Origin: Sialis fuliginosa
Lineage: Eukaryota > Arthropoda > Insecta > Megaloptera > Sialidae
DNA length: 64,000 bases
Direction: 5' to 3'
NCBI GenBank assembly: GCA_961205875.1
Contig: OY540813.1
Location: 22,973,001 to 23,037,000, forward strand
The position numbers were made by a program, and so were the translations under genes. Position 1 is the first letter of the stretch. Every line of letters begins with the position of its first letter. The notes under the pieces are model-generated. The model was not told the DNA's origin, did no database searches, and worked only from the letters and a program-made list of their open reading frames with translations. This document shows positions 795-29,400 of this stretch, in pieces.

Positions 795-1425
795 ATGATT
801 GTCTTGAATGTATTTAGTGTACTTTTATTTCTAACGTATACATGTGGGAACTTATCAAAAAGTGATGATGGATTAGTTGATTTGAAACTATTAGATAATC
901 ACAATAGTGCTACAGATTCATCTGCACTGGCTTATAATACAAGCACAGATTCAGTTCTAATGATAACTAGCGAAATCAATATAGGTGAAGTGCGTGACTC
1001 TTATAACGAATCAGATACATTTTGTTTTATCAATGGGACATCCACTGGTTGTGATTGTATTAAATATCAATGTGTAAGAAAGTGTTGTCCTGAGGGTCAG
1101 ATTTACATCGACGTTAACAAAATGGCTTACTGTACAAACCATACTATTAGCTTTCACCCATTTGTGTTTAATAGAACGAAAAGGATCGACAGCAAGAAAA
1201 ATATTAATTTTCTTGTGACAACTCTTTTTGAGGCCGATCTGTTAGCTTCTCCGGATTTGTTCTTGCAATCGGATGGACTGGTATTGAATGGCAGTAAACG
1301 GATTCATATAAGTGACTATTGTTTCGAGGTGACTTTGTTTTCCAACAACAATCGTACTGTCTTGGAGATGTGGAAACGTAGTCAACCAGTGGCTAAAAAT
1401 CTACAAGTTACTTTAGTTGCAACGG
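795..1425 (+). CDS. mth-like: Methuselah-like receptor ectodomain exon (orphan exon 1, copy I)
   Basis: Encodes a secreted N-terminal ectodomain of the Methuselah-like GPCR family, the extracellular ligand-binding head. The ATG at 795 gives a hydrophobic signal peptide (MIVLNVFSVLLFLTYT). The family hallmark CDCIKYQCVRKCC follows near residues 88-100, then FLQSDGLVLNGS and a DYC motif. The reading frame stops at 1431, but a donor (G|GTATTT) at 1425/1426 leaves a phase-1 end in a glycine codon, the same phase as the ectodomain exon of gene A. No transmembrane exon follows before 28017. Two of the family's ten cysteines are missing: the eighth and the tenth, the latter lying in a basic LEMWKRSQ stretch. 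It is either an alternative first exon of gene A or a stranded remnant. Two short upstream ATGs (767, 772) open other frames. Confidence 0.8.
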
Positions 1426-1433
1426 GTATTTGA

Positions 1434-3879
1434 TTTATTATATATTTATTTTATTTTATAAGTTGATTTTATTGGCCCTTTTTAACAGTTCTTGTTAACC
1501 CTTCTGTCAGACCCGCATATATTTATACCATTTTTTTTCTAGTTAAATAAGTTTTTTTTAAAGGAAACTAAACGTAGAATTAGTTGCGAACTACGCAAAA
1601 TACAATTTTTTATAGTTAAAAATGTAATGAAAATGCATCGAATTAAAAAAAAAAACAGTAAAATACTAGGATTTTTGAAAAACAAATGTACGTATTACGT
1701 ATGAGTTATAATATTATGTAGTCATATTGTAGGATATTTTGTAATAAAGCAACAACAATTGTGTCATCATTTATCTAATTACCATTACGCCCTTGTGATA
1801 ATGAAACAAATGGAGAAATAAACCATATCATATTCGAATATAAACTTTACAAAACGCCACAAACAATACTCTAAACTTGCTAACGACTGAAAACAAAAGA
1901 AATTATGATGCCATATAATAGAATTTAAAAGAGACGCTCAAATAAAATTTTAATTGAACAAAATATATTATAACAATCACAAAACGTACTCCTAAAACTC
2001 CTAATGTAATACCCAATACCTAATCCTAGACAACCCTGCCGTACTGTATGTTGAATCCTGCTCTGCCAGGCATAGAGGCAATCTCCATTCCGTATTTGTC
2101 TCCATTTTTATATGTTGTACTTATGTGTTGGTGTTCCTCTCACATTAGGAAGAAGAAACAACATTTAAATAAAATTAGATGACTGATTTTGTAAAAAAGA
2201 ATGCCAAGAAATTTAAATTAAAAGAATGGTGTCATCATCTACTTTGGTTCTCGGGATATATGTATTTTTATGAACTAAGGAAATGAAAAAATAAATTCAC
2301 AAGGTCCAACTTTTGAGTTAGCTCAAGGTTCAGCTTGTGGGACTTTTTGGTCGTGAAACTACAATGCTTATTCTACATTTATGGTACCTATCAATGTTTT
2401 CTGTTAGCAGACATTTTTTTTGTATTATCTTTTTTATAAATAAAATATTACTCGAGTCCATATACATACCATATTATTTAAATATTTTTAAATAAGCTTT
2501 TGTTATTGTTTTGGATATGTATTTCTGAATTTCTCTTGTACTGTTTGGGTAAAACCCAGCCGTACGGTTCTAAATAAAAGTGTTACAGGTGTCTTTTACT
2601 GCCTCTATTTACCTGCTTGGTAACATACTTCAAATACACACGGAATGCCAGTTTTTATGTACTTATATTGTTATTTTTTTGCGATTCTATTTATTTCTTC
2701 ATTCATCAACATGAATTGATGAACTGTCCGTTGTTGCTTAGAGGCAATTTTCAATAAATTGTTAGAAAAAGTTCCAGAAGTGTTTTTGTTTGTTTTAATA
2801 TAAAATTTATTTTTAATAATTGAATTGGTAGTTTGGGTAAGGGAATAATTTTAAAAACTTAATTTTACAAAAAATAAATGTGTTTGAATTTTTTTATTTA
2901 TAGTGTTTTTTTTATTCTAGACTAAAATAAAGAAGAATAACACCATACATTAATTTTAGATAAAATATTTTTTTCATATGAGTGAATTTAAACCTCGTGG
3001 ATTTATCCCTTAATCCAAACCCTTAAAATGGCTAATTCTGCAGAAAAACAATCATTAAATGCAATGTTAAACTTTATTCAGATAGAAAATATTCTCTGTA
3101 GATGGCGACGTATTTATATTACGTATAAGAAAGTGCCATCTTATACGTAATACAACAGTGTACGTGTCTCTAATTATATAACACAAATCTTTCTGCTAAC
3201 TGATAAAAGATATGAAAATATTAATGAAACATAAACTATAGAAAATAACGTTCTCTACAACTTTTTAAAAACATTTATTTCTGTTATGAACCGTTTCAAA
3301 TATACATATATACATAATTTAAAAAATAAAATATCAAAAAGTTAAATCTTAAATGTTCGATTAAAAACATCATTTTTTAGCTCCCTGAAGACGTGTGCTG
3401 ATGGTTCACGTTTTAAAACTTTTGTAGAAAAATATCGAATATTCTTATACCTATCTAAAAAATCTCGTCCAAATCGATTCAGTAGCTCTCTTGTTAGAAG
3501 CGAATATAGACAGGTATAGTTACGAGTATTTGTATTATGTCAATTAACTGAAATATCAATTTTAATTAATACGGATAACAAATTTTACGTTTAAATTTTA
3601 TAGGTAACTTAAAAATAAATATGTTATTATTTTAATTGTATAATTATTAATTAGAAAATAATTTTTATATCAGACGCATCTACAAATAATAATATGTATG
3701 TTTGCATAGTTTAACATGTTTACAGAGAAAACAAGAAATTAATTATAATTTTTTTTGTATTATTTCAACCAAGGTTACATATTTTCTATATTCGTATTAA
3801 GCCAGAAATCTTAAAATAAATATAAAAATATAGGCAAGTGCAGTCAATATCAAATTATTTTGTTTTAAGGTATTTATAC
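1434..3879. other. Intergenic, no gene seen
   Basis: A+T-rich sequence after the first ectodomain exon. A short hairpin (TTACGTATAAGAAAG inverted as CTTATACGTAA) lies at about 3119-3151. No Mth transmembrane exon is visible on the + strand. Confidence 0.6.
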
Positions 3880-4266
3880 CAGGGCTTCGAACCGTTATTT
3901 TCTTCGTTTCGGTTTTCGTTCCGGTTCGAGTAAAAAAATATATTTCGGTTCGGTTCCGGTTTTCGTTCCGAAAATATAGCGGTTTTTCCGGTTTTTTCGG
4001 TTTTTTGATTCAGCTCCGAGTGATTAATTAAAAAAAAAATTATTTGTATTAAATTTTTTTTTTACCATAATTTCAAACATTTTATGGTACTTGTAGTCCG
4101 AACGACAATTGAAGTGGGAAATAAAATCATGTTAACGCGCGTATTTCAACATGTACCTACTGAACCGTAAAAACCGATATTTTTATTTCGGTTCTGTTCC
4201 GGTTTTCGTTCCAGCAAAAAATAACAGTTTTTCCGGGTTTCGGTTCAGTTCCGGTTCGAGGCCCTG
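3880..4266. mobile_element. hAT-type MITE, Cys-free family 1 (CAGGGCTTCGAACC ends)
   Basis: The 387-bp element begins CAGGGCTTCGAACCG and ends CGGTTCGAGGCCCTG, an inverted pair. It is flanked by a perfect 8-bp duplication ATTTATAC (3872-3879 and 4267-4274), which with the CAGGG end is diagnostic of the hAT superfamily. The interior is built of TTCGGTTCCGG-like repeats and contains no coding sequence. The same family recurs at 26462-26606. Confidence 0.85.
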
Positions 4267-4811
4267 ATTTATACAGAGTATAGAATGTAAAACATAATGA
4301 AATTAATGTTATTTTGATTTTATATTAATGATGGTCCAAAAATTACAATTCATGTATCAAATCGATATTTAAGTAAATTGTATAAAAGTTACTAATTTAA
4401 ATTGGTCACGTTCGTTTGATCCCCCCCCCCCCCACCCCAACAGTCACCCAGACGGTTTGCCTAGTGTTGTTTCAGAATTAATATACCTAGATAATAACAA
4501 TGTACATATGTATAAGAAAGATATGATAATAAATAAAATAGTTAAACTATTTTTTTTCTGTGGAGGTTAAACCGGCTTTGCTAGAGAAAGAAAATTGGTT
4601 TTTCTAAAAATGGTAAACTATAATTAGTTTCTTTACTTTCACATTTATATCCTGCATGGATATTTGCCATTTTACTTTCTGTAATTACATTTGTAATTAA
4701 TGAGTAAATATCTAAAAATGAATATCACCACGCTTTAGTATGTAAGTGATTTTTACTCATGTTCACGAATTAATTATATTTACTCAAACTCGATCACGCA
4801 TTTTATAATAA

Positions 4812-5415
4812 AAAATGGCCGAGTGCACATGATAGGTTTCCGTAGTCATTACGATTTATGAACAACAGTTATTTAATTTTTTTTTATAAACTATTCTAGC
4901 TAGTGTTCGTTATAATTTTCATTGAAAGTACTAACTAAAAACTACATTCTGGATTTTTTTTAGATTTTTTGCATTGACAGTGTTCTTTATAATTTTCAGT
5001 GAAAGTACTAATTAAAAGTTACATTCATTATATTGTGACTAAAGGGTTAAAATCAAAAGATCATTTAACATTTTTTGTTGCATTTTAGGAGAACTATCTA
5101 ATGACATCTCACTCAATGGGGTAAGTGAGAAGAAAAATGTGAGTTCATTTTTCAGTTTATGGTAGGGGGGTCCAAAATAATTTTGACAGTGTTCGTTATA
5201 ATTTTCAGTGAAAATACTAATTAAAAGCTATATTCTCGAATTTTTTCAGATTTTTTATTTTGTGGTTTAGAAAATAGAGGGGGGGGGGGGGACGCTCTGA
5301 TAACGACAGTCTTCGTCCGTATACCAAATTTCATCTTAATTGGCTTAAAATTTTTGAGGACGGACGGACATGACGAAACTATAAGGTTTTCTAGTTTTCT
5401 ACGGAAACCTAAAAA
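4812..5415 (+). repeat. Dispersed repeat R2, copy 1
   Basis: It starts with AATGGCCGAGTGCACATGAT and ends with CTACGGAAACCTAAAAAT, and contains internal copies of GTTCGTTATAATTTTCAGTG. A second copy lies at 13567-14228. The end resembles the 3' tails of some insect retroelements, but class is not certain. Confidence 0.6.
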
Positions 5416-6561
5416 TATCATGTGATATGACACAATCTTAACTTCGGAAAAAAATATTATACAATATGAAATATCATTTCTCAATTTAAAATATAAAACT
5501 CGTTTTATAAAATTATTGTTAACGCTTTTTTTTTTTTTAAATATTATTTTATTAAAACTTCTTAAATAATTCGAGGAAAGTATGGTTTTATAATTTTGGT
5601 TTTGGTATTTGACAAAAGTTTAGTTATCTTTAGTAATTTTATTTTAATTTTTTAATGGGATTATTTTTATACAGGTGATCCATTTTAAGTGTTTACTCCT
5701 TTTAACTTTTTATGGCTAGGTTCTATCGAAAAACATTTCAGACGAAAGTTGCACTGTTTAGAAGAGGACATCGATGTACTCTGGTTAATTTTTCTTTAGG
5801 TGGCAGTTTTAATGTAATTGAAAATTCAGTATAACTGTTAGTAGTAAACCAGCTACAGTGATTTTAATACTTTGTTTGTAATATTTTTATTTTATCATAT
5901 TTTGGGAGACTAAATTCAATTTAAAATTCAATTTTAAAGCATATTTGCATATTATATATTTTCAACTGACGCCTCTGGGATAATATGCGATTTTGACAAT
6001 TAAAAAAAGATGGCTGCCGTCAAATTTTGGCAACACTTTCATGTACGGACTAGCATTAATTGTTATGTATTCATAGTCTTTCCTAATCTAAGGAATGGAC
6101 ACTTAAAATGGGTCATCTTGTATGTAGTTTCATTTTGTAATGCAGTCCTTATGACTATGCCAATGTGCCATACACAGTTTTGTAGAACTTCTGAAAGTCT
6201 GTGATGCAGCTTTCATGACCTACCTAAAATAACTTTATTTTATAAACATTAATGTATACATTTTAATAACATAAAGGCGTTATTATTTCTAATTATATCT
6301 ACAATCAATATTTCACAGAAATGACTCATTTTGTTACTGTTAAAATATTTGTTCAGTACAGTTGCAAGTACGAGCTTAAAAATTATTATCTTATCTTATA
6401 TTTACTATATGGTAGTTTAAAATAAGGACTGGGTGGTTTATTTGCGCAACTATCAATTGCACCAAAAAAATATTTTAATAAAAGTTCTAAGGGAAATTCA
6501 TGTAGGCAATTATTTACTGCAAGCTAGAAATTCAACGAATTAAATAAACTGTAACCGGTCA

Positions 6562-7026
6562 GCATATTTCCAAAAGCCCGTCCAGTACAGAGCAACGGAT
6601 GAAAATTGTGCTCTGTAAAGCACTGGAGTTTGGAAATCGTGTCATTGATATTTGCACTCCAAACCCCAGTCGAGTACAGAGCATACTCAGACTAGAACTA
6701 GGTGTGGAATCTCGATGTGGGGCTTATAAACTATAGTTTAAAAAATATGCGTTACTTATTATTATATCAAATTAAAACATTTTCGCGTCAGCGAAAATGT
6801 AGTATTCTTATATGCTATTTTATTATGTAATAAATTTTATGGTTGATACGGAGAATAGGGGTACAAGCTTTCACTACTGTCTAACATTAGCCTCAGTCTG
6901 AGTATGCTCTGTACTCGACTAGGGTTTGGAGTGCAAATATCAATGAAACGATTTCCAAACTCCAGTGCTTTACAGAGCACAATTTTCGTCCGTTGCTCTG
7001 TACTGGACGGGCTTTTGGAAATATGC
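6562..7026. mobile_element. Fold-back DNA element with 9-bp target duplication
   Basis: The 465-bp element is bounded by GCATATTTCC and GGAAATATGC. Two arms of about 132 bp (6562-6693 and 6895-7026) are nearly perfect inverted copies around a loop of about 200 bp. It is flanked by a perfect 9-bp direct repeat AACCGGTCA (6553-6561 and 7027-7035). A 9-bp duplication with long arms suggests a Mutator-like or fold-back element. Confidence 0.8.
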
Positions 7027-7323
7027 AACCGGTCACACGAATTGAAATGTAGTACAATTATTATAATAATATAATAATCGATATCTCATATATAATGGGG
7101 AAATAGATTACTTTTTTTGGAGACTTATTTCGAATTTCGAGTATCATGATTTCGCGATTAGATCACTTGGAGATCGTTAAAAATATAGCTACCAACAGTT
7201 TAGATCCACAGACTACTTGATGACTGATGCATCGCGAACGCGCGATTGTCGCAAACTCACTCACTAGCTCGCACGACCCAGCGCGATCGATATATGTACA
7301 TAGTACATATGTATGTAGTTCAT

Positions 7324-8396
7324 AAGGGAACCTTTTCAAGTGGCATATTCGGATCAAGTTTAAATTTTATATATAGTTAGAGGGGGTCAGAGTAAGTAAG
7401 AAAACAATTATCTTAGCTGCGGTAAAACGGTTTAAAGGGGTGAAAAATAATCATATATTTAAAATAACTCTGAAACTAATGAATATTTAAAAATATCTAT
7501 AATACAAAAATTTTATGATTTTTTGTGCTCTTTCAAACGACAACAGTAGAAATTAAAAAAAATGAAACCGTAAACTCCCACCTTCCACCCATCCCATTAT
7601 TTATTTTAATTTTTTTTTCTATTAACTAAAATGAATTGTAGTCTACAGCAATTCAAATATATAAGACATATTTCACAAATTTTTTTTAACGCTTTCATCG
7701 TCACATTATCATATTTTGAAAAATATTAATTACATTTTTTTATTACGTTAGAGATAAGAAAAGTATTGACTAGAGTTGAAAAGTTACCAATTTAGAAGGA
7801 TATTTACATTTCAGGACCCCTAGAATCCAGTAAAGAGATTTTTAGCACATGTTAGTCTAGTACAAGCTTGTCCAACCCGCGGCCCTCGAGGAGTCTTGGT
7901 GCGGCCCGCGAGGATAATAATAAAACAAAAAAATTATATAGTAATAAATTTACATTAAAATTATTTAGCACAACTAAAAAAAAAAGTCTTTTGTTGTTCC
8001 TAATGTAACTCGTTATTTATTCAATAAAAATTAGAAATTGCAATAGACGCGACTAAAAAAAAAAAAGGTCCTCAGTTTTATATTCTAGCCTGTGGCCCTT
8101 AGTAAATTTAATTAATTAAAATTTCTGCTATGCGGTCCAGAAGATTGAAAAGGTTGGACACCTATGGTCTAGTAAACGGCCGGTTAAAATTGTCATTAGT
8201 TATGTTTGTTTCTTGCATTAGTCCAATTAAAAATTATGTGAATTCAGTCCCGTTTCAAACTTAATTAAAAAATCCGAAATTTCATAACTTGATGTTGTTT
8301 TTTTGGTCATGAGAGCAATCTAAAAGTATTTAAATTAATGTAAAATTATTCAAAATTTAAACTCGATCTGAATATGCCACTTGAAAAGGTTCCCTT
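7324..8396. mobile_element. Larger terminal-inverted-repeat element hosting a nested hAT MITE
   Basis: AAGGGAACCTTTTCAAGTGG at 7324 is inverted as CCACTTGAAAAGGTTCCCTT ending at 8396; the arms continue about 20 bases further with mismatches. The flanks do not show a clear duplication. A hAT MITE (7863-8166) is inserted inside. No intact transposase is seen. Confidence 0.6.
7863..8166. mobile_element. hAT-type MITE, family 2 (TGTCCAACC ends)
   Basis: The 304-bp element begins CAAGCTTGTCCAACC and ends GGTTGGACACCTATG, inverted with a few mismatches. It is flanked by a perfect 8-bp duplication GTCTAGTA (7855-7862 and 8167-8174). A second, oppositely oriented copy is at 52278-52576 with almost the same target sequence. 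Confidence 0.88.
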
Positions 8397-9239
8397 GTCA
8401 GTGGTATGGAAACGTCCAATGTACATACCTATTAGCACCTCATTTTTCGCGCTTCGACCGCGACTTGTTCGTGTAGACGTGCGATTAATAAACGCCTCAA
8501 TCGCTTGATCGCGAGAGATTACGATAGGATATCTATTTATCTATACACATGCCAAATCGCGCGATCTGAAATCAATCAATTCACGATACAATCACTGAAT
8601 CGCACGCTTTGATATAAAAAGTAGCATGTTTGGTTTGGCTCTCAAAACTGAATTTGTAGAATATGTAATTTCTATTTAAAAATGCCATATGGCTTTTTAT
8701 TTATTAATAATAATTGAGGATTAAAAAACTTCCAAATTTTTTTATCCTGGGTCCTATGGGAAATCTACTACTCGTTAAGTTATAATTGCGTTTTCCAACG
8801 CTTATATTGCGGCTTATAAAGGTTTTATAGTTTGGGGTAAGATTGGTGTAAAAACCTCTTTTAATAATAAATAAAATACAAGATTGTAAAATTCTACTTT
8901 ATATATTTATCAGCAATAAAAGCCAAACAAAAACTAAAGAAACTAACTCTGCAAAAAAATAAATAAATGGTTATCAAATACTTGATATCAAAAATCGATG
9001 AAATGTTTGTTTTCTTCTGGTTTCTGAACGAATTATGTAATGTTTATTTACACACATATTTAAAATTAACGTTTTAATTACAGTGGCGGATTAGGACATT
9101 ATTGTTGGGGCTGTAGCTTAGAGGTATCATGTTTAAGATAGCATTAATAATTATAATTAGTCTCATTTAAAGATAATTTTATTAAAAAATTATATACATA
9201 TAATATAGTATAATCTAACAAATAAACGAAAATAGAATA

Positions 9240-9370
9240 TTATGACCACTAGAGATTGGTGCGTGATTTTCGCTTAGGAATTAAATTAATTTACTCACGC
9301 TAGACCACGTAACGTGGGTCACGCCCGTGACACGATTTTATGCATATTGAACAAATAAAATGTCAAATTA
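9240..9370. repeat. CGTGAC-rich dispersed repeat fragment
   Basis: The stretch TTTACTCACGCTAGACC and GTCACGCCCGTGACACGAT recurs in part at 17440-17520, and in inverted, diverged form around 10190-10390 (GTGATCGGGCGTGAGC). Boundaries are unclear. Confidence 0.4.
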
Positions 9371-9636
9371 AAAATTTATTTCTCAATTTAAAATAATGAT
9401 TCATTTTTAAATAAAAAAATATTTTACACTATTTTAGTAAATAATAATATACATAAATTGATGAAAGTATTATTATCAAAAATAATAATTATCGGAAATT
9501 CCTTTTTTTATTTTCAAAATATAATTCACGTCCAGAAATACACGAACTGTTTTGACTTTATGATTAACGTTCATGCATGCTCACGATGTAATATTTCAAA
9601 ATTGATAATAACGCTCATACCGAGACATGTTGCGAC

Positions 9637-9896
9637 TAGGGTTACCAGATTTTTGTTTTGGTAAACCCTGAGATGTAAATGAAGACCCCTTTTTTATTTT
9701 ATTTTATTCTTTTTATTTTTATTTTAATAAAAATTGTTACCAACATCTGCACTGTTATGTCCCCTGCTCTAGTTTTTTTTTTTAGTCGTCGTCATTTTTT
9801 GCAAAACCCGGAGAAATTGCACCCAAACCCGAAGCCCGCAGATTCAGTATGCAAACCCTGAGACTCCGAGTCAAAACCGGAGACCTGGTCACCCTA
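9637..9896. mobile_element. hAT-type MITE, family 3 (TAGGGTNACCAG ends)
   Basis: The 260-bp element is bounded by TAGGGTTACCAG and CTGGTCACCCTA with one mismatch between the termini. It is flanked by a perfect 8-bp duplication GTTGCGAC (9629-9636 and 9897-9904). The interior repeats AAACCCTGAGA-like sequence near both ends. Confidence 0.88.
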
Positions 9897-10432
9897 GTTG
9901 CGACTCGAAAAACTCACAGCCCATGTCCAACTTTAGTATTTAATATTAACTGTAGGGTTTTAAAATCAATAATGTTATTCGACCTATTAATAAATAACAA
10001 GTGGTGTATTCAGCGTTAGTTGCTTATTGTAATATATTTAATAACTAGTTTTTTTTTACTCATGTGTATTTCAAAATCGGCGAATGTCCACGAGACAGAC
10101 TGTCATAATATTGCGCTATCCGCCAATGTTACTGCTCTTTAATGGAGTAACGTTATGATATCTAGCCTAGAGCTGGGTGCGGACCGTGCATTTTTCGTTC
10201 ATCATTTCAAAATTTAATTTACAACAATTACATTAAATCGTGTCACGAGCATGATCCATCGTGCGTGATCGGGCGTGAGCAAAAAAATAGGATTCGTGAG
10301 CATGCGTGATCGTGAATACTTTTTTTTATAATCGTGAGTGAGCGGGCGTGACTGAAATTTTTTCTCTCGTGATCGTATGTAAAAATTACTTACTTAGCCC
10401 AAGCTCTAATCTAGCCTAAACTAATTCTAGTC

Positions 10433-10826
10433 ATGTTGTGTTTAGAAAAAATAAAAAAAATAGCCGAAAATTTACGTATTTTTTTACATTATTTTTTAAT
10501 TCTATAACTGAATACATTTTCAGTTGCAAAAAAAACCTGAAAAGTAGAGATTTAAATTTTTTAAATGTAATTTTATTTTTCACCCTTTTTTCTAGCCATA
10601 TTTTAAAGGCTATTAATGTTTTTTCTTCTTCTGAAAATGTTTTATTTGTTAATTATAATTTTTTTTCAAACAAAATAATTGTCTTTCAATTACAAACTTG
10701 AACCCGAACCCGAACTGAACCCTGAAAAAATAACGGTTTTTAAACCCAAATAATTTGCACCATGTTGAACACAAACCCAAACTCGAACCATAAATAAATT
10801 CCAGTTCAAGTCCCTGGTCTAAACAC
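10433..10826. repeat. Decayed inverted-repeat element
   Basis: The right end (CCAGTTCAAGTCCCTGGTCTAAACACGGCA) combines a hAT-like CCCTG end with the terminal GGTCTAAACACGGCA of the TAA-flanked MITE family at 49410-49535. The left end TGTTGTGTTTAGA is a poor inverse match. It may be a nested insertion; boundaries are uncertain. Confidence 0.35.
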
Positions 10827-11671
10827 GGCATTAGAGTTCTTAAAATTGAAAGTCCCACCATAAGCGGTTCAGTAGTTTAGGAAAGGTTCTAAAAAACTAT
10901 TAAAATTGATTCTAATGTCTGTAAAACGATACAGGCTCAAAAACGCGAAAATATTTATATTGTATAAACAGCTTTTTTTTAAATAATGGTCAATGCATAT
11001 GTACATGAGTGTATGGCAGTGTATGCTATTTGGGTTTCATAGATAATTGAGTACTTAGGTACCATGCAATTTACTTAAATTTCATATTAAAATATTATAT
11101 TATTAGATAACAATTTTTTTCTCAATTTTTGCAATAATTTTTCCAGAATTTTTGAGCCTCTTGCTGGCACCATTTTTGAGTAAAAAAGAGGGTCATGTTC
11201 TACTGATTAAGAATTCAATTTTAATATCAAATATGCCTAGTGCCCCATCTTTCCTCATTTTCTTTAACTAAAACTGAATGTTTTATTAAAATTTTAAGTA
11301 TTTAGTGACGGAAGAAAGATAGACATACAAACAAATGGACGAACGGTAAAGTGAGATTAATAGAAACTTAAAAAAATATTAAATGGGGCATTGAATATTT
11401 TAATTCGCCTCTGACAGTTGTTATTATTGACATACATATTATTTATCATAATTAATAAATAAACACTGAAAATGTACGTTATATTTAATTATAATATATC
11501 AGTTATTTACGTTAAATATAAAATAAAGCATAAAATGAGATCACACACCGGGAGTTTTGTGGTACCAAGCGATAAATCAACCTAATCATAATTGTAAAAC
11601 AATTTAGTCGTGTATCTCACACAACAGATAAACTACGTTTTAAAAATTAAGAGCGGTATTTTACCCCAAAA
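10827..11671. other. Intergenic 5' flank of the second ectodomain exon
   Basis: No gene or bounded repeat recognised. The last 100 bases must hold the leader or promoter of the 11672 exon if it is expressed; no clear TATA or initiator motif was found. Confidence 0.5.
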
Positions 11672-12236
11672 ATGGCTAACGTGAAATATATTTTCATATT
11701 TTCCATATATGTGTTCCTATATTTAGAAATATCCACCAGTGATTTGGTCATTTCTACAGCAAATTTTAACGAAACTGATAACATTCTTTTTGACAATAAC
11801 AAAGATAAGTTGTGTTCAAAATATACGTATGATTTTAAAGAATGTGATTGTGTAAAGTACCAATGTGTTCGCAAATGTTGTGGTGTCAACGAAGTGTATT
11901 ATTTTGAAACACTAAAACCTACGTGTAGAAGAACACAGGACCTTTTGACTTTTCATCCGTATATTTTCGATAATATGACGGGAATGGACAACGATAGACC
12001 GTACAATTTCGTGGTCTCGATTGATTGTAAGAAGTTTAGACTTTATGAAGACGAAGATGCGTTTTTACAACCGAATGGATCGATTGTTTATGAATTTCTT
12101 GAATATGATCTACATAGTTATTGCATGGAGATTATGTTATTTGCTGATAAACGAAGTCCTACAATAGAGACTGCAGTATGTAGTGATCAATTTGAAACGC
12201 CTAATAATGGAAGCTTAGATGTTTTCTTGACTTTGG
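11672..12236 (+). CDS. mth-like: Methuselah-like receptor ectodomain exon (orphan exon 1, copy II)
   Basis: Encodes a second secreted Mth-type ectodomain. The ATG at 11672 starts a signal peptide (MANVKYIFIFSIYVFLYLEI). The core CDCVKYQCVRKCC is present, followed by TFHPYIF, FLQPNGSIV and SYCMEI. All ten family cysteines can be counted. The gap between the first two is much shorter than in gene A. The frame runs to a stop at 12257, but TTGG|GTAATA at 12236/12237 is a good donor, again phase 1 through a glycine codon. Several N-glycosylation sequons are visible. No 7TM exons are seen between here and gene A at 25836, so it may splice onto gene A's TM1 exon. The protein is intact, with no frameshift, which argues for continued use. 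It is diverged from gene A's ectodomain. Confidence 0.83.
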
Positions 12237-12400
12237 GTAATACATTGACATATTTATAAGAGCTTTTTAAATGTTGCTTAAGAGCTTATCGTTATATTCA
12301 TCTTATATAGTGATTAGAAAATTTTTGAATTAATTATTTTCTCGTTGAACATTAAATTCTCGAAATTAGTATATTTTATAGTATTTTGTATTTATATTAT

Positions 12401-13215
12401 ACTAGTGCATTGAACCCGCTATTACCCAGGTTAATATCCACAAAATCATAGTGACCTAAAATATTTAACATGCCCACCCAACATGCCCACAACACACGGT
12501 TCATCACGAATTTTTTTCTGACTTCGTAAAATTTACACAAAATATCCACAAATTGTACACTTAATCCTTAAACTAAAAATATACATCTTAACCATTTTTA
12601 GTTTAAGTAACTAAGAAACCACAGTTTCTCCGTTTTTCCAGTAGCACCTAATCCTACTATATGTTAATCTATGTATCTATAAGTGAAAGGCGGAATAAAA
12701 TCCGTTCATTAGTTACGTGTAAAATTATATTTTCAAACTCTTTTGTATGAAAATCAAAAAATAAAAATAAATATGTTAGCAACAATCATAAATCAACAAT
12801 CATAATCAATTTCGATATTTTACCTTTCATGGAAGTGAAATGTTTCTTTATAGGTATTTCAATTTTCAATCAATATAGATATCTCAAAATTAACATAATA
12901 ATATGTGAAAAATCATCCAATTGTAACCTAAATTAATAAAATAAAATATTGAAACCGTAAATTATAGAATTCTGTATTTCACAGTACTTTGTTTTTATAT
13001 ACCTAAATGGCAGTTGTATGCTGTGACATCATGGAAACAATACACGACTTGATAAAGATTTTTTTAGTCTTTTGATGTTAAATCTTAGGTTTTCATAAAA
13101 TATTAATAACGACGATACTATCTAACTATTGGTGAAAACTGCATTGAATTCGGTTAAGCAATTCCCGATTCTATAAGCCTCTCACAAACGAAAATTCATT
13201 TTTATTCATCGAGAT
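12401..13215 (+). repeat. Dispersed repeat R1, copy 1
   Basis: About 800 bp, from GTGCATTGAACCCG through CATGCCCACCCAACATGCCC to TCTATAAGCCTC. It is matched in the same orientation by 30821-31550 in gene A intron 2. The tail (CCGATTCTATAAGCCTC, then CATTTTTAT) looks like the 3' end of an insect retroposon, but no coding domain remains. Confidence 0.6.
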
Positions 13216-13566: not shown

Positions 13567-14228
13567 AAATGGCCAAGTGCGTGTTGGACATGCAAATGAT
13601 AGAATTCCGTAGTCATTCTCACTAAGATTTATAAAAAAAGACTTACTTCAAAATTTTTCATAAATAATAATTTTTGCTACAGTATTCGTTATAATTTTCA
13701 TTGAAAGTACTAATTAAAAGCTACATTCTGGATTTTTTTTGCATCAATAATTTAGAAATTACAAGGGAGAGGGTTGCTCTGATAACCACATTGAAAAGCA
13801 AATATATCATGACTGAAGGGTTAAAATCAAAAGGTCATATAACATTTTTTGTTGCAATTTAGGAGACCTATTTAAAGATACCCTACTCAATAGGGTAAGT
13901 GAAAAAAAATGTGAGTTCAATTTTCAGTCTATAGGAGGGGGTCCAAAAATTTGTTGACATTGTTCGTTATAATTTTTAATGAAAATACTAACTAAAAGCT
14001 ACATTTTGAATGCAAATATATCGTGACTGAAGGGTTAAAATCTAATGATCCCAAAATATTTTTTGTTGCATTTTAGGACACCTATCTAAAGACACCTCAC
14101 TCAATGGGATATGTGAAAAACAATTTTTGAATATACTTTTCAGTCTATTTCATTATTTCTGTTTTTGGGTCATCAATCTAGAGCAAAATTATAAGGGTTC
14201 CTAGTTCTCTACAGAATCCTAAAAACGC
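13567..14228 (+). repeat. Dispersed repeat R2, copy 2
   Basis: It starts ATGGCCAAGTGCGTGTTGGA and ends CTCTACAGAATCCTAAAAA. It has three internal GTTCGTTATAATTTT-type blocks, as in copy 1 at 4812-5415. Confidence 0.6.
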
Positions 14229-18619: not shown

Positions 18620-18952
18620 GAGAGACTCTCAAAACGTGTTATTCCGTTGTAATCTCGAGTTCGAATTTTTTTATGATCACTATACTTTACTATACAGTAC
18701 ATTTCATGTAGGTATGTATAAAAAATATTCAATAAATTCAGTATTTTTGATCACATAACTTGTTTCGACCCCTGTAGTTTTTGATTGATAGGTTCTCTAT
18801 AATTAATTCATAGACTAGGGAATACTAAAAATAAAATCTCTAATTTGATTTTACGCGAACCGTGCGTGAAAAAGATTTAAACTATATTGATTGCGTGTAT
18901 ATGCCCAGTCCGTTTTACTCTTATTCAATTCGTGTACACTCTCGCTTCATAC

Positions 18953-18977
18953 ACCCACACACACACACACACACACA
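18953..18977. repeat. CA microsatellite
   Basis: A run of CA dinucleotides, slightly interrupted at the left end. Confidence 0.8.
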
Positions 18978-20594
18978 TACCCATCTGCAAAGGATGTTTA
19001 GTCACTTACTCACACTATGACCGAGAGGACGCGCGTTCGTGCTAAAGGACAAATAACTTTAAATATTTAAAGATACGATAAAGTTTCTTTAAACAGTTGT
19101 GAAGTTATGTACAAGTGAAGTATCAACATAAGTAATTTTTTTGTTGTAAAATAAAATAAATGTATTTTAGTGGGAGTTTAAATTTTTGTGATAAAATAAA
19201 TAAATATGTTTAATAAAAAATTACTGAATTAAGTATTTATTAGTATCTTTGGTTTCAACGATCTTATATACTAAAATACCTAAGTAAATCTATTTTATTA
19301 GAAAATAGGAATACCTAATTGATATTTTTCTTATACGTACTTTAAATGTTCTTCCTTTATATGCACTTGGTGTAAATCAATTATCTTAAAGTATAAATTA
19401 CTTCTAGGTTCTTAGGCTTTTGGTCAGTGATATCCTCACCAAAATCAGTTCAGTAATTTTCGTGTCAAGTCGGAACAAACAAACAGATCAAATGATAAAA
19501 ATTCTAAAAACAATAAAAATATTACCTATAAAATGACAAAAAAATTATATTTTAGTATTGATGATGTATATTTCCAACAGTACAAAAATTTATATATTTG
19601 TTATATATAAATCCTTACATAATTTAATACTTAAATAAATACATTTAAATATTTTAAGAAAAAAAAATTCAGTCTTAAAATTTACATGACAGGCACTAAG
19701 GACTAAGATCAATACGCCAAAACTTTATTTTTTCTTTCAAACTTTATAATATACAAATATGACATTTTTCATCAGGTTTTTACATTTCTTTTGATAAATA
19801 AACAATCTTTGTCATTTGTATAACAATTTCTAAATATTTAAAAATATATGGAAAAGAAATAAACATTTCAATATGGTTTAGTCGTAAACGTCTCTTTTCA
19901 AAAAAATGTTATTATATCTTTCAATTAATTAATTAATTAATTAAAAATTTAGATAAAATAATAATAATAATAGTTAACACAAACAACAATTATGTATTAC
20001 GTAAATTATAGATAAGGTACCTACTACATACATGTGCGCACACTTCAATATACAAATATATAGAGTGATAAGAAAGTCCCTAGACAATGTTTAAATACTC
20101 ATAAAATTTAACTAATAATCGTTACTGAATAACAAAAAAATATTATAATTAAAAAATTTCTTTTTTTTCCATATGAAACATTGAATAAATTAAAAAAAAA
20201 AAAAAAAAATCATAAGTGTATACAAAAAAAAACCTAATAGGATTAGATATAAGCTTATTAAATTTTGAACCGGGAGTCTAATAAAATATTGTTTTTAGTT
20301 TGGAAATTTGACAATTCTTATCGGGACACAATAGGACTCTCTTTTCTGTTATTTCTAATCCAGCGTGCCCTTTGATTAAGCGAATCTTGAGTAACATATG
20401 GGCTTATAAGAAGTGACCCTAGACCTAAAAAGCAAATTTATTTTTGAAATGCATTCTTAAATTATTCGATTGTTTCCAGACTTTTTGGACATCTTGTATA
20501 ATTAAATGTCCTAAGTAAAATTAAAGTCTCTTCACAATTACTTATATGGGCAACTTAAGTATCTTTTAGGTGGTATATTTAAAAAAATATTATA

Positions 20595-21128
20595 AGGTAG
20601 TAACACCAGTCTTGGCAAGGACCCCAGTAATGGCAAATTTTTAATTAAATGTACTGAATTAGAAATATTAATCTATATAAGTACATTTAACTGTCTTACA
20701 GCGTGATTTGATGATTATCGGCCAATAGGTGTCAAAATTGTGGATATTTAACTAATTATTAGTATAATTTATTAATTAATTATTGTATTATCATAACAAC
20801 TGCTTTACATTGTTTCTTTGACGATTTTTTTTATATGTTTTGTGTCGTAGTATTTATCATTTTGTAAACATAAGTAAGTGTTCATCAATGAGTGCTCATT
20901 ACTAGTTTTATCTTTGCCATTACTGGAGAAAAAACATGAATAAAATAAAAGGTTATAATTTAAAAAACAAACTATATTTGCGGGCTTTGGTAATTAAATT
21001 GATTTAATAAAGAGTTACTTGTTCTGTTAGTAACATGAGTTCATGGGAATTATAAAGAAAAACAAGCTCATTAATCCAAAAATAACGAAAACTTGCTCTT
21101 ATAGCGCCCATAACTGGTGCCTTTACCT
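20595..21128. mobile_element. Terminal-inverted-repeat element flanked by TATA
   Basis: AAGGTAGTAACACCAGT at the left and ACTGGTGCCTTTACCT at the right are inverted copies. Both sides carry TATA (20591-20594 and 21129-21132), consistent with a TA-type target duplication. About 534 bp, non-coding. Confidence 0.55.
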
Positions 21129-22528
21129 TATATGAGTATCGAAATTTGTATAGATGGTATGTAGTTTTATTTCATACATTTCTTATAATTCTGTAAAATA
21201 GCATAGACCTAATTTGAAAGTTCTATTTACCTACCGAGGGTGACACCCTAGAGATTCTAGACTAGATAAAACTTCAAACTAAAAGTAAAAGCATGTATAA
21301 ACAACGAATAGCAAACAATAAATAACATCTCTTAAAATTCATATTTTGTGTTGTGACATCAATTTTACGGTTTACTGTCATTTTTTTAACAGCTTTATTT
21401 TTGTATGTACAAACAATTAGATAGATAATATATTACATTGAAAACAGACATCTGCAGTGGTCAGTTAGAATTTATTTTTGGTTAAAAAAAATTGCAGGTC
21501 CGTAATTAAGATATTTAACGTTAGTTACTAAGTAAGTCACTCAGTTGTATATGGTGAATCCACTATAACCAAATACTCGAGTACAAAAAATTTCAAATAC
21601 ACAAAATATGGATTCTTTCCAGAAAAGTATAAAAAATCGTTTTGCCAATAACTTGAATAATATGTTATTTTATTTTAGAACTGTGAGCAAGTACAAAAAA
21701 ATTACTTCCAAATTTCCAATAAATATATAAAAGAATAAGTAGGTACTTATAAATGTAAGTATTTTTGAAATAAAAATAATTGAATAATAATACTTTTATT
21801 TGAAATGTACTTGTATCAGCCATATGACTTCATGTAAAGTATACTTAAAAAACATGGAGTTCCTCAACTGTGGGCAAACACTAGTCAAGACTATGATTTT
21901 ATCAATTCAAAATTTTGTACACGTTATGAATTCTACTTGTATAATTATATCAACACTTCCCAAAAACAGGAGAATATAGTATTTATATACCTGTTTTAGT
22001 TAAAATTACATTTTTTTGATAAAAAAAAACATGATAATTAATTGTTTTTAATCAATCGGCAGGAAATATTTAACCACAAAATAAAAATATATAAAAATAT
22101 CACACACGTATCTATACATTTAAAAATGTACTTTTTTTTGTTAAATTATATCACATTAGAATTGCGAAATCATGACCTAATTTTGTTATACAGGGTATGC
22201 TACATTTTCTGTTATATCAATATCATATTTGCGATAAAAATATTCGATTTTGAAGTATTTATTTTTAATCATTATTTTTAGTATATTTTTGTTTCGTAAC
22301 TCGATGTGAACCGGAAAATTCATGGCTCACGCCCAACTCGAGCTTAAATCAGATTTTTTTATATAAAGCCTGTATTACACTTAACACAATATTTTCAACA
22401 ATTTCTCTAACTTAATCAGCAATACTAACTTAAAGTTATAAAATAACAAAACCTTAAAGAAACATATAATTATTATTAATAATTAATATAATATCTTACA
22501 AAATAGCATAGTATGTATTAATCTTGTA

Positions 22529-23409
22529 TGGGGAGAGTGGGGTAATTACGAACTCGGGGTAATCGCGAATTCAGTGGTTTCAGTGTGTTATAAGAGGAAA
22601 GCTAATGTTCTCTCTGCACTTACCGAAAGTTAGGCTTAAGTTTAGTATCGAACCAGGTCAGTGTTGATCACGCTCATAGTACAAAGTAAGCTTAATTCCA
22701 TTTTGATATCATATTTCATTTCATTTTTTAATAAAATAAAAGTCATGTAATAACTGATATCTAATTAATATAAATGCGATTAAGTAATGCTCAAGTAAGC
22801 CTCGATCAATTACTGGATATATGATTCTAACCTCAAAAAAAGATTTTAATTTTTGCAAGCTCATGGGGGTAATGACGAACGAATTAAATGGGGTAATTCC
22901 GAACGTTGTAAAAAAAGACTGATGAAAATTAAAACTGTAAAAAGTGCGATGAATCGCAGCAATTTTAAAGAAAATAATCAAAAGAAGAAGTGCCAAGTAA
23001 AAAACAAGAAGAAACGAAGATATTGATAAAGAAAATATTTATTTTTGTTATTATAATGAATAATATCAAGATCCTCCTGTTGAAGACTAGGTAATGTGCT
23101 ACAAGTGAAATTTATGGGCACATGATAAGTGTATCAGTGGTCAAAGTACATCCAGAGGCTTTCGCTGTGACTTTTGTATCAATTAGGTTTAATTATACCA
23201 CTGTTAGTGATTACCCCATGCTAGTCGAGTAATCACGATCACCAAAATTTTTTTTTAAAGTTAATTCTTATATTTTATTAAACTTGATAATGAAAATTTA
23301 TAATTAATAGATTATAAATGATAATACACAATACATATATTGGTTTCTTACTCAGGTTTTAATTTATTTGATTTTTTCCTTAGGTGCACGTAACTACCCC
23401 ACGCTCCCC
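22529..23409 (+). mobile_element. Degenerate pogo-like (Tc1/mariner-type) transposon with broken transposase tail
   Basis: The ends TGGGGAGAGTGGGGTAATTA and TAACTACCCCACGCTCCCC are inverted copies flanked by TA (22527-22528 and 23410-23411). Around 23042-23180 on the + strand, a frame interrupted by stops still shows a PHD-like cysteine pattern (FCYY, then VMCYK, LWAHDKCISG and FRCDFC). This is typical of the C-terminal finger of some pogo/jerky-type transposases. There are stops at the expected tryptophan and second-cysteine positions, so it cannot make protein. GGGGTAATNNCGAAC recurs internally. Confidence 0.6.
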
Positions 23410-23744
23410 TACTGTAAAAAAATTATCAATTGCGCAACGTTAATATCCCTATAAATTACCAAAAAAATGACAAATATGTTTTATTTTCGTCAAGAAATCG
23501 AGCGTGTAATTGAACGAAAAATTGATAAGTGTACGTAATACAGGCTTAAACTTTTATCCAAAATAAACATAAAATGTATCTATTAAAGTTTTATATTTGT
23601 ATTTGTTTTGTAAACACATTTGGTGACATTTTTTAAGTTGTTTGGTTCGGCACTTTTTTATAAATTTAATGTTATAAATATTAAAAACATTGTCTGACTA
23701 ATTCTAAGAACTTTTCATCCTTTGCAAAATTTTCAAAAAGTTGA

Positions 23745-24030
23745 TCCTTTAGAATTTAGAAGATAAACATAAAAATAAACATAAACATAAAAAGTTTCGG
23801 TGCCGTTTGGAGCAAAAATTATGGATTTTTGTAGTTTGCACTCTTTACAACTTTTGATCAGCTTACTTACTATCATTTTCATAAAAAAATTCAAGTAAAA
23901 GGTAAAATTCATTGTTTGGGGTCCTTTCTTTTGTTCTACTGCTGAAATGGATCATTTGTAGATACGGGTTTATTAACAAAAATCAATTGTTTTAATGTTC
24001 TCGACAACTCCTGAAACGATATGTTTACGG
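23745..24030 (-). repeat. Dispersed repeat R3, copy 1 (minus orientation)
   Basis: The inverse of 58335-58640: the shared text in + orientation of the other copy begins GTGTCCCGTAAACAT, followed by CAGGAGTTGTCGAGAA. The ends resemble short TA-type MITEs. Confidence 0.55.
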
Positions 24031-24092
24031 GACATCTATTTTAAAATAAAATTTGTAGAGAATAATATTACCAAAAAAAAAGAAATTAAAAA

Positions 24093-24362
24093 TTGACAAA
24101 AGTAAACATTCTTCGTTTGCAAGATCATTTTCAAAAATGGGATGTTTTTTCCGAGATGAAAATGAATCTTAAATATAAAATTCGACTCTTTTATGATTTG
24201 TCATTTTCGAGTTATACAACGTTTAAACAGATTCATCATTGCGCGATGAATATAGTAAGAATGGATTCAGGAAGGTCAAAAGAGATGTTTTCATCAAATT
24301 TCGAATTCGAAAAAAATAGGTTTAACAATACTTACTTATACATAGTCGTATAAGAAAGTAAA
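24093..24362 (+). repeat. Dispersed repeat R4 fragment
   Basis: ATGGATTCAGGAAGGTCAAA and a tail CGTATAAGAAAGTAAAA recur at 33560-33868, 40826-41000, 58010-58100 and partly at 18215-18370. The 86-codon frame within it is not a gene. Confidence 0.5.
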
Positions 24363-25805
24363 ATATATCGAATGAAACAAGTACCTGTACTAAAGGAGAG
24401 GCACCTTAATATTTGAAATATATGTAAACATGATACTGTTGACATATTACCTTTGACTTATCTAAACAAACGCCAGAATGTGTTAATGTAAAATGAAATA
24501 TTTATTCAATAATGTCTATATCTTATCATTACATTTCTATGCAAACATAAAACTAGATACTGCTTTTAAAGACCGTTACTTTACATATGTTTGTTGATAA
24601 TCATTAGCCATAGAAGAGTTTCACGTAAAAATTATACTAACAATAGCTATTAAAACATTATATTCATACTCTGTAAATAAAAATGTATTATACATTAATA
24701 TAATTATAAAAAGTGGTACAACTAACAAGGACTATTTTTTGCAGTAACTGTTAATGTTAATATTGAGTCATCTCTCAATACAGTAATAGACAAGTGCTGT
24801 CTCTCGTGTTTGTTTTTTATGTTGTAGAATAATATAGGGACATTTATAATAACGTATAAATACCTGAAATAATAAATATGCATATTATGAACATATCTGT
24901 ATTACGGAAGCATTTAACAATGTGGGTGTGTGTGTGTTTTTTGTTAACATATTTTATAAAGAATAATCACGACCATGTTTGTTATTAAATATATTGGCGG
25001 GAAAAACTATTTGTGTTTGGTTCTTGCCATCACATGTGACAGAACAGGTTTAATAGATGGTGATAATAAACGAACACGTTAATTTTTAAACTAATATATT
25101 TATAAAAGTAATATTGTAGTTGATTTAAAACAGTTTTATAAACAAATTAAAAGTGGAACGAGATTGTAAATTTTTTTAACTCGAATCATAAAATAATTTT
25201 TTATTTGCTATTATCCGTAAAATTTTCGTATTTTATGTAAGGGAGTAATAGTATTACCATTGAAACTCGCCAGTTTGGTGGTCAGTCAGTAGCATAGTTA
25301 TGTATTAGAAGCAAACATATACCGGGTGTTCAAAATAAAATGTTACTAACTTTTATTTTAGAGGGGTGTCAATATTATATTTTTAATATTTCATTTCTGT
25401 GTCAGGTTTTTTATTTTTGTTTTGAGGAGGGGTTTTTACGTGAAAAAATATCAAACTTTTGTCTGAAACACTTTTTCGTTCGGGGTGATTTTTAAAAGTG
25501 TTTCAGCAAATAAATGTAATGGACGCGAATTTTGTCATTAAAATAAATTAATTTAAATAAAAAGTGCAACAGACAAAATGTTGTTTTAAATAATGTTTAA
25601 TTTAAAACTGTTAAAAATATTTGTTGAGGTATAAAATAGTTGTTAAAGAAAAAAATAAAACGGATACATAATAAAAATTACAATACAGTTACAGTTTTTG
25701 CAACAGTTGAAAAATTATTTCTCCAAATTTTTTATTAAAATAGCAGTATTTTTTTCGTAGGTATTATTCTCCAATTTGACGATACTTAATCAGATCATAT
25801 AAAAA

Positions 25806-25829
25806 ATGAAAACAGTTAAAAAAAATTAG
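25806..25829 (+). promoter_or_regulatory. Upstream ORF in the 5' leader of gene A
   Basis: A seven-codon ORF (MKTVKKN, stop TAG) ends six bases before the gene A start codon. A TCAGA motif (initiator-like) lies at about 25790. The tandem copy B has the same ATG but one A fewer, which changes where the uORF ends. Whether it is in the mRNA is inferred from position only. Confidence 0.35.
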
Positions 25830-25835
25830 TTTAAA

Positions 25836-26418
25836 ATGAAGCAACTACCATTAATCAATTACATAATAATTTTATTTCTCGTGACAAACATTATAAGTGA
25901 CGAACAATATCCGTGTTCTCTGCAAGAAACCATTGACATCAACAATGCTACAACAAAACATTATAAAAATAAAAGCATCATTACAGAGGAAGGTGACATA
26001 TACGATGAAGGACAATATTTTCAATACAATTCTACAATTAAAGGATGCGTCTGCATGTTACGGACGTGCATACGAAAATGCTGCCCGATCGGTTATCGCT
26101 ACAAAGGAGGAATATGTGATAAAAAAAATGAAAATGAATCAAATTCATTTGAACCCCAATTTTATATTGGTTCATCACAGACGGAATTTAAAAAGTACAC
26201 AGTTCTTGAGGAAAATGTATGTATATATGGAATGTACTATCTTAATAATTCAGAAAATGAACATTATTTACAAACTAATGGATCGATTCTTCAAGACCAT
26301 TATCTATATACTATAAACGATTATTGTTTGGATGAGTTTGCGGCAATAGACAATGAAACAATTAATACAGGGATTTGTTTCGGACCTCCAGATGACATAC
26401 CTGTTAGTTATCCTTTAG
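25836..26418 (+). CDS. mth-like: Gene A exon 1: signal peptide and Mth ectodomain
   Basis: The ATG at 25836 begins a signal peptide (MKQLPLINYIIILFLVTNII). The mature ectodomain carries ten cysteines in the Methuselah arrangement: one near the start (QYPC), the cluster CVCMLRTCIRKCC at about residues 69-83, then one each in GGIC, ENVC, DYC and GICF. FLQ-like and TNGSI motifs precede DYC. There are many N-glycosylation sequons. The exon ends in PLG, where G|GTATTG at 26418/26419 is the donor (phase 1). It joins TM1 as PL-G-MLISVPF. Read-through past the donor enters a MITE, which shows that the longer reading frame is not the real protein. It is closely related to exon 1 of gene B. Confidence 0.9.
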
Positions 26419-29400
26419 GTATTGATTTTATAATAATAATAATCTTTAACAATATAAAAACCAGGGCTTCGAACCGTTATTTTTTTTCGTTTCGGTTTTC
26501 GTTCCGGTTCGAGTAAAAAAATATATTTCGGTTCGGTTCCGGTTTTCGTTCCGGCAAAAAATAACGGGTTTTCCGGTTTTCGATTCAGTTCCGGTTCGAA
26601 ACCCTTATAAAAACACAGCATATGTACATTTATTCTGAGTTGTGTACACTGTACAAGTTATACAGTAAATGTACTTTAGTAAATGTATTTAAGTACAAGT
26701 ACTTTTGTTTGGTAAAGTACTTAAGTACAAGTACAATTACTCCAAAAAGCACATTAGTATTTGTAATATGTACGTACATAGCACGGCTTTGCATTTATTC
26801 ATATCGGAATTATCGGATTATTTGGAGATATTTAAATCTTAAATCTCCTTGGAATACCTCTTCCTTTTATCAGAGAATCTTCTCTTCGTGAATTTTCCAT
26901 TTATGTTTATAAAAATTTCGGACTCGAAGCATTTTGTTTATGCTATTTAAAAAAGGACATCTTTACAAAAATATTTTAATGTGATATAAACAAAATAATA
27001 TATTTTTTAGTTACATGCTTCACAACTATGTTAAAAAATTATTTAATCACAAATTTTCACATATTGTGAAATAGATTAATGCCCATTTTCACTTTCATTT
27101 GGAGATTTAGAAGTCTCTTTAAAATAACATATTTTAGTGAAAATGGGAGAAACGCAAATAAACAAAATTTTCTAGAATTTAAAAACTGAAACTTCCCAAT
27201 AACAATATTATAAAGTTTCATATTTTTATGTTAATATGTAGGTACATATAAAATAAATATTAGAATAATATTTAGTATAGAATCTTAATGTAAAAGCACT
27301 TAAGTATTTTTGTTTGGAAATTGACTTAAGTACCTTCCATTAACCAATTACCGAATCTTCAATTTGTTGACTAAAATAAAAATAATTAAAAAACCTAATG
27401 GATTTATGTTAGTTATTAAACTAATTTTAATCCAAAATCTTTGTATGAGCCAGTGATATATGCTTTCAGAAGCCAAAGTGGCCAACTAATTTTCTCAATA
27501 TTTTATATATTTATTTTTAACTCTCAGTCTATAATTATTTTTAAATATTTTGTTCATTTCGTTGAGAATATTCAATATGTGATACTTTAACTCACAATCA
27601 ATATTTTTATGTTGCACGCTGCATTTTTGTAGATATCAACAAAATATTTTTGTATTGTTTATTTGGGTTATTTTTTGTATCTTCCATTTAAATACAAAAT
27701 AATAAAATCACATATCTTCATAAATATTTGAAGATATGACGTATTCTTAACACTTGCTTGACCTTATAATTCAATATTTTTTTTGGTTTAATTAAATCAA
27801 TATCATTAAATTTATAAAATATGTTTACTGTAAAATGTCGATTATAAACTTTTTTTAAAACGAACCTGTCCTAATTCAACTAATTCTAGGATGTAGGAGA
27901 AGAATGAAGTCCTTGACAAGAAAACCATGAAATATATTAAAAAATATATATATAATTTTGGTACTTATATCAATAATGGTTCATAATTAATAATAATAGT
28001 ATATTTTCTGTTTCAGGAATGCTTATATCTGTCCCGTTCCTATTCGCTACGTTTCTGGTGTACGCCTTAATTCCAGAGCTCCAAAATTTGCATGGGAAAT
28101 CGCTCATGTGCCACGTGACCAGTCTGTCATTCGCTTACATCTTTTTAGCTACTGTACAACTCAATCTTCAACTTCCAGAAACAATTTGCCATTCTTTTGG
28201 TTAGTATAAAAGAGTTTTTAACTAGTTTAACAAACAATAAAAACAACTAATATGACATATTATAGAATTGAGTGCTTTTCCATTTATTTATAAATAGAAA
28301 TCATATTGATTTTTGGTATTCATTATTAATACAATTAGTTAAGTGTTAACTTAATTAATACTTGGAAATATCATAATATTAATAATATATTATATTAATA
28401 ATATTAATATTTATTTTGTGCGTAATTGAGACACAAACAAGTACTTTATTAGGGATATGTTATATTATTTTGATTTTTATAGGTTCTTAAAAAACTGTTT
28501 AGAAATTAAAATAAAAGGTTAAAAATAATTTAAATTTGGTATTTAAACACCATGATTTTTGTCGTAATATGACACGCAAATATATCGTCATGCTGACTAA
28601 AATATTTGTGATTACTGTTAAGGTGTGTAGCTGTCAAAGGAGTAAAGAAATAATAACTGCGGTAGTTGTTTCGTGTATATAGTTCTAGATTAATTCAGAG
28701 GGCTGTACAAATCTAATGAATGCTATTACAGCATATAAAGGAGACAAATTTATTTTTCACCTTGTAAAAACAATTATCCAATACTTTGTATCAAGGGTGT
28801 TTAACTTTATGGCTTCCCTCGGTCACTGAGTGCATGAAGATAAATTAAGTTAAACAAAACGCAATCAGGTAGTAATTAAAAATAATTTGAAATGCATGTA
28901 AATTTAAGTTCGTCAAAAAAACAATAGTTTGATACAATACGGTAACCTTAACAAAATGTTTTTCAAGAGTGTAAGAATTTAATTCCAGTTTTCTATGTTG
29001 GAAAATAAAGTAAAAATGTGAATTGTACCTCCCCCTCTCACCATCCCACACAACTTAAAATTCAACACTAGTTATGAAAATCTGACCCCCATGAGTAAAA
29101 TGAAAAGTCGAAGCTTATGGAACCCTGGTTATGTTCAACCCTAGCAACCCTAGAAAGTATAATCAATAATCCGCAGTTTTTTTTATTTACGCAAATGATT
29201 TTATATGAAAATTTCTGTATTGATTTTTTTTGTATTTAATAATATTCATTACGTTTTTGTATAAAAATAGTTTTTTGTTGAATGTAGATTATAATAATTT
29301 ACATAAATATTATGTTCAATTTGTCTTATTGCTATTTAAAAAAAATCTATTTGAAACATGATAAAAATACTGGATAAGTGAGAGGTTCAGGATAATTGTT

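Follow-up and report, generated by a model that had tools for sequence, protein, structure and literature searches.

Mammalian UGT1A and the clustered protocadherins have variable first exons, each under its own promoter, that are joined to one common set of downstream exons. Neither encodes GPCRs, and in the protocadherins the membrane helix is part of the variable exon. In class-B GPCRs, ligand choice is held to depend largely on the ectodomain, and the signal on the seven-membrane (7TM) body. Among insect chemoreceptors, the variable exon of the gustatory receptors holds much of the membrane protein, and Drosophila Gr39a and Gr28b reportedly have alternative N-terminal exons. The beetle genes Tribolium TcasGr214 and Dendroctonus DponGr38a-d are described as carrying unique N-terminal exons ahead of shared C-terminal exons, each unique exon giving one variant, with 30 variants for TcasGr214 (PMC6720082). 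For the Methuselah receptors, the ten-cysteine framework is given as the defining feature of the Mth ectodomain and the Methuselah_N domain is described as arthropod-specific; the accessible part of the text of this 2016 family survey contains no word starting with 'splic' or 'exon' (PMC4768249). In the open-licence literature we found no report of Methuselah receptor genes with a shared cassette. Here we describe a Methuselah-family locus (locus A) of Sialis fuliginosa in which seven ectodomain exons precede one 7TM cassette.

Results

Architecture of the locus

The window is the 64,000-nucleotide stretch C5:22973001-23037000 of a 392 Mb, 20-contig genome; its coordinates are numbered from its own first base, and its A+T content is ~72%. 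Locus A lies on the + strand and consists of seven head exons (C5:22953815-22999418) followed by one 7TM cassette (window 28017-40497), in the order D1, D2, D3, D4, E1, E2, E3 and then TM1 at 23001017. An earlier note on this DNA had recognized three open head exons (795-1425, 11672-12236 and 25836-26418), each with a phase-1 donor that splits a glycine codon, and a matching TM1 acceptor at 28017. These junction features are borne out, the donors reading G|GTA and the phase-1 acceptor completing the glycine codon, and the count of three gives way to seven heads ahead of the cassette, four of them upstream of the window. The four were located by genome search with E1, E2, E3 and D4 as queries. 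All are type-1 heads on the + strand, D1 at C5:22953815-22954343, D2 at C5:22957151-22957697, D3 at C5:22961236-22961881 and D4 at C5:22966803-22967469, with starts that precede the window by 6 to 19 kb. A NIF3-family open frame at 22946300 lies upstream of the array.

Within the window, the orphan head E1 (window 795..1425 = C5:22973795-22974425, + strand) encodes a type-1 Methuselah-like ectodomain of 210 aa and ends at the phase-1 donor G|gtatttg, and the orphan head E2 (window 11672..12236 = C5:22984672-22985236, + strand), also type 1, encodes 188 aa and ends at the phase-1 donor G|gtaatac. The type-2 head E3 (window 25836..26418 = C5:22998836-22999418, + strand; 194 aa, Pfam Methuselah_N) is the first coding exon adjoining the cassette. 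All three have an ATG start and a hydrophobic leader, the leader being judged by eye. Locus A therefore comprises six type-1 heads (D1-D4, E1 and E2) and one type-2 head, E3, which is nearest the cassette.

E3 is the first of the seven exons of gene A3 (25836-40497), whose splice sites are consistent and whose translation has no internal stop. The TM1 exon (28017..28199), which provides the shared acceptor, enters and leaves in phase 1, and is followed on the + strand by the TM3-region exon (34097..34175), the TM4/5-region exon (37897..38081), the TM5/6-region exon (38470..38641), the TM6/7 exon (40033..40218) and a C-terminal exon closing with the stop codon (40445..40497). The shared cassette scores 73.1 bits against 7tm_2 PF00002 (cut-off 20.6) and E3 scores 45.8 bits against Methuselah_N (Pfam cut-off 21.5). 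A tandem duplicate of A3, gene A4, starts at 60273 and extends beyond the window to about 23041655, with its exons seen in frame by eye. Its head E4 (60273..60855, + strand) has 90% aa identity to E3 and is followed on the + strand by a TM1 exon (61942..62124) and a TM3-region exon (62716..62794), the other A4 TM exons lying past the window. The TM1 exon at 28017, described previously as the only one, thus has a counterpart downstream, at 61942-62124 in A4.

The window also holds a foldback element of ~5 kb (42742-47728), with outer inverted repeats of ~580 bp that are 98% identical and that enclose two opposed arrays of 150-151-bp tandem repeats in 7.1 and 9.4 copies; by eye, its ends look Tc1/mariner-like. 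Two dispersed repeat pairs, ~75-84% identical, lie in introns or spacers of locus A at 12389-13215 / 30805-31549 and at 4824-5234 / 13591-14005, and are probably mobile elements. Neither an Rfam nor a tRNA scan gave a match in the window.

Two diverged classes of ectodomain

The head tree splits the ectodomains into two types with support of 100/99, type 1 containing D1-D4, E1, E2, B1 and D0, and type 2 containing E3, E4, B2, C1-C5 and Eh. Against the Methuselah_N cut-off of 21.5 bits, one of the seven type-1 head exons scores above (B1, 21.8). All six orphan heads of locus A fall below it, four of them at 12.3-18.2 bits (D1 18.2, D4 14.7, D2 14.5, E1 12.3) and two, E2 and D3, without a match. 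Profile comparison of six type-1 with seven type-2 heads relates the two classes at E=2.7e-13 (probability 98%). For the type-1 heads, the best two PDB matches are chains of the Mth ectodomain, both weak (E=0.016 and 0.02). The ten family cysteines are all aligned in D1-D4, E2 and B1, six of the seven type-1 head exons, while E1 has eight of the ten, being without the 8th and 10th, and D0 is likewise without both. We take these two conserved cysteines to form a disulphide pair in Mth, and their joint absence in E1, D0, C2/C3 and C4 is as expected of such a pair. By eye, C1 and Eh have a gap at the 8th cysteine column with a cysteine close by. An AlphaFold model of E1 from a four-row alignment reached a pLDDT of 31.

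A paralogous locus and other copies in the genome

The order found in locus A recurs on the minus strand of the same contig in locus B, where a type-1 head (B1, C5:2008132-2007520) and a type-2 head (B2, C5:1999298-1998662) precede one cassette (C5:1997910-1993096). B1 clusters with D4/E2 with support of 93/93, just below the tool's mark, and B2 falls on the type-2 side. By identity, A4 aside, the A3 cassette is nearest that of locus B (66% vs 51-56% for cluster C), whereas the approximate cassette tree places A3/A4 closer to cluster C than to locus B with weak support (0.80). The tree result counts against one two-headed ancestor for loci A and B, though both may descend from one. Several other loci read have one head per cassette, namely cluster C, with five heads and five cassettes in alternation, locus E (1:1) and A4 (1:1).

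The genome queries recovered eight type-1 heads. Locus A holds six of them and locus B one, and the eighth belongs to D0 (G000:C2:36653917-36656202, L010). D0 is a Methuselah-like receptor in a single intronless open frame of 762 aa that fuses a type-1 head to 7tm_2, whereas A3 has six introns; D0 also has a long Ser/Thr/Asn-rich N-terminal stretch and may be the retrocopy of a processed transcript. With heads E1, E2, E3 and D4 as queries, no type-1 head exon with its own cassette was found, the D0 fusion being the only other copy. As placed, the eight type-1 heads therefore include no head exon with a cassette of its own, yet D0 puts the type on a 7TM protein. Locus B additionally contains a TM exon set, B0 (C5:2014067-2011538, L012, minus strand). 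A search for its head as far as 2037999 found none, and parts of these receptor genes can therefore be lost. Upstream of B0 are a succinyl-CoA-ligase-like frame and kinase exons (names by eye), so that unrelated genes intervene.

Maintenance of the head exons

All seven separate type-1 head exons found (D1-D4, E1, E2 and B1) are open with an in-phase donor; at local composition, the chance that 190 codons stay open at a given position is 6.5e-8. A phase-1 GGT donor is present in 16 of the 16 heads examined (D1-D4, E1-E4, B1, B2, C1-C5 and Eh), and 15 of these donors begin GTA; D1, E3, E4, C4 and C5 had more than one GGT in the scanned stretch, and the one at the matching position was chosen. 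The tail between the final cysteine and the donor, counted by eye, is 10, 10, 16, 20, 18 and 21 aa in D1, D2, D3, D4, E2 and B1, respectively, with phase 1 unchanged.

D1 and D2, the youngest type-1 pair, are 72% identical and bear the mark of purifying selection (dN 0.152, dS 0.378; Fisher p=0.002). Only 2 of 1000 neutral simulations were as low, and 11 of 1000 were stop-free. Among the controls, C2/C3 gave p=2.6e-5 and E3/E4 gave p=0.056, which is not significant. The other type-1 pairs tried were saturated, and selection is testable for D1/D2 only. Up to the donor, D1 and D2 agree at 74/90 positions, the final 17 being identical, and past it at 54/113, which is the shuffled level (51%, sd 2.7); in the 100 bases ahead of the ATG, 63/119 positions match. 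E3/E4, a younger pair, are alike on both sides of the donor (84/90, then 75/106). Splicing at the donor base, where D1/D2 conservation ends, is therefore probably the feature maintained by selection. No coding similarity was found when the D1-D2 interval was compared with the D2-D3 interval (plus-strand frames of at least 20 aa, E up to 0.001), and a shared private downstream exon of at least 20 aa is therefore unlikely. Matches among the larger inter-head intervals resemble dispersed repeats.

These data bear on the alternative that the six upstream heads are independent genes for secreted, soluble ectodomains, perhaps receptor decoys, each with a short and mostly untranslated private 3' exon. 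A small 3' exon would evade every scan used here, each head opens a coding sequence with a start codon of its own, and each frame stops 2-33 codons past the donor. We nevertheless consider such genes unlikely, as phase 1 is kept in all seven type-1 head exons despite the varying tail lengths, no private exon common to the D1-D2 and D2-D3 intervals was found, D0 joins a head of this type directly to a 7TM domain and locus B repeats the arrangement. The divergence of D1 and D2 past the donor, next to a conserved exon, also disfavours an unspliced reading, and on this ground soluble heads made by plain read-through were rejected.

Search for other transmembrane exons

The earlier note had seen no TM exon in 1426-28016, and this stands. 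None was found there by tblastn of the window, among the matches listed (complete for the whole-7TM query), nor by profile HMMs up to E3. Genome-wide, a 7TM search in which the best candidates were scored gave 76 listed matches, none of them at C5 22953000-23001015. The HMMs cover five TM segments and draw on at most 12 cassettes (8 once loci A and B are excluded), with uncurated rows anchored on A3; they were run against six-frame open frames of at least 12 aa in the loci fetched. When built without loci A and B they still detect the five segments of A3, A4, B and B0, with E from 4e-8 to 7e-32. Applied to both strands of 22943001-22998835, the 55.8 kb with the six orphan heads, these leave-out HMMs gave a best E of 0.018 on the minus strand and 0.15 on the plus strand; this profile search, which had been proposed along with the original observation, reveals no hidden TM exon set before 25836. 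The minus-strand match at E=0.018 (22967937-22967626) overlaps an inverted-repeat arm, has no Pfam match above cut-off and was dropped as chance. Of the non-head open frames of at least 85 aa between the heads, 13/15 were put through Pfam and none scored above cut-off; those left out are a frame at 22952963, upstream of D1, and a frame antisense to D4.

Could the heads instead be decaying exons, left behind when tandem duplicates lost their TM exons? Duplication in tandem does occur in the family, both in cluster C, with its five heads and five cassettes, and in the duplication that gave A3 and A4, and no head was detected for the TM exons of B0. Stranding would, however, require six losses that left no TM remnant found by the HMMs, and no head has acquired a stop or lost its donor. 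We regard this history as very unlikely, and decay of the orphan heads was rejected on the open frames, the D1/D2 selection, with conservation that reaches the donor, and the kept cysteines. The case made earlier against simple decay is thereby strengthened, from open frames in the window to seven of seven type-1 head exons open with an in-phase donor, six of seven with all ten cysteines, and purifying selection in D1/D2. More improbable still is that private TM exons exist and were dropped from the assembly or have diverged past recognition, as the locus A region contains no N, the TM segments modelled are still recovered from loci A and B by the leave-out HMMs, and all six intervals would need to be affected.

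Discussion

From the sequence, we think it quite likely that locus A forms a single class-B GPCR gene of the Methuselah family, in which seven first coding exons serve as alternatives ahead of one 7TM cassette. The basis of this reading is that the heads are intact, selection acts on the testable pair, the donor is conserved, no other TM exons were found and the arrangement occurs twice. The shared cassette suggested by the earlier note is thus supported, and the donors at 1425 and 12236 would be spliced to 28017.

Under the alternative-first-exon reading, each head exon would supply a cysteine-rich ectodomain in full, preceded by a leader peptide and closed by the lead-in to TM1. Each head would probably be transcribed from its own promoter, and a transcript begun at a head would have its donor joined through a phase-1 junction to the single TM1 acceptor at window 28017. 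In a simple scan of up to 300 bp upstream, no acceptor-like site was seen in any of the seven type-1 heads or in five of the nine type-2 heads. Meeting no acceptor at the intervening heads, a transcript from a given head would reach the TM1 acceptor; E3 has an acceptor-like site upstream, and some choice by skipping may remain there. Such a gene would make several receptors that differ in the outer head, and presumably in ligand, and have one 7TM signalling body in common. Initiator and TATA words upstream of the heads are inconsistent, and the orphan-head donors are mostly not the strong GTAAGT, with the donors of cassette-owning heads no better. Weak promoter signs, weak donors, Pfam scores below cut-off and the loss seen in B0 count against alternative first exons.

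It also seems reasonably probable that the locus is modular, combining two diverged classes of Methuselah ectodomain in at least seven heads with one 7TM body, and that the paralogous locus is built in the same way with two. The ligand range of such a gene would evolve by duplication of single head exons, as in D1/D2, with signalling fixed. If so, a natural array of swappable ectodomains would separate ligand choice from signal in vivo, offering a direct route to ligands of the largely orphan Methuselah receptors, and several distinct signals could be sensed through one gene. Gene catalogues would also miss receptors, since annotation by one head and one gene would yield one receptor and fragments where seven may be made.

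Locus A resembles the Methuselah and Methuselah-like class-B GPCRs, such as Drosophila Mth, in its 7tm_2 cassette, in the Methuselah_N domain of E3/E4 and in the ten-cysteine framework of the type-1 heads. It differs from several other Methuselah loci read, which have one head per cassette, in having seven heads and a second, diverged head type. Like UGT1A and the clustered protocadherins, the proposed gene would splice variable first exons to a common set, although those genes do not encode GPCRs. Like the gustatory receptor genes, it places unique N-terminal exons ahead of a shared C-terminal set. This organization is established for beetle taste receptors and, as far as the open-licence literature shows, would be new for Methuselah receptors. 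The gustatory receptors are an unrelated family, and in locus A the variable exon is the extracellular domain, with the membrane helices shared apart from the lead-in to TM1.
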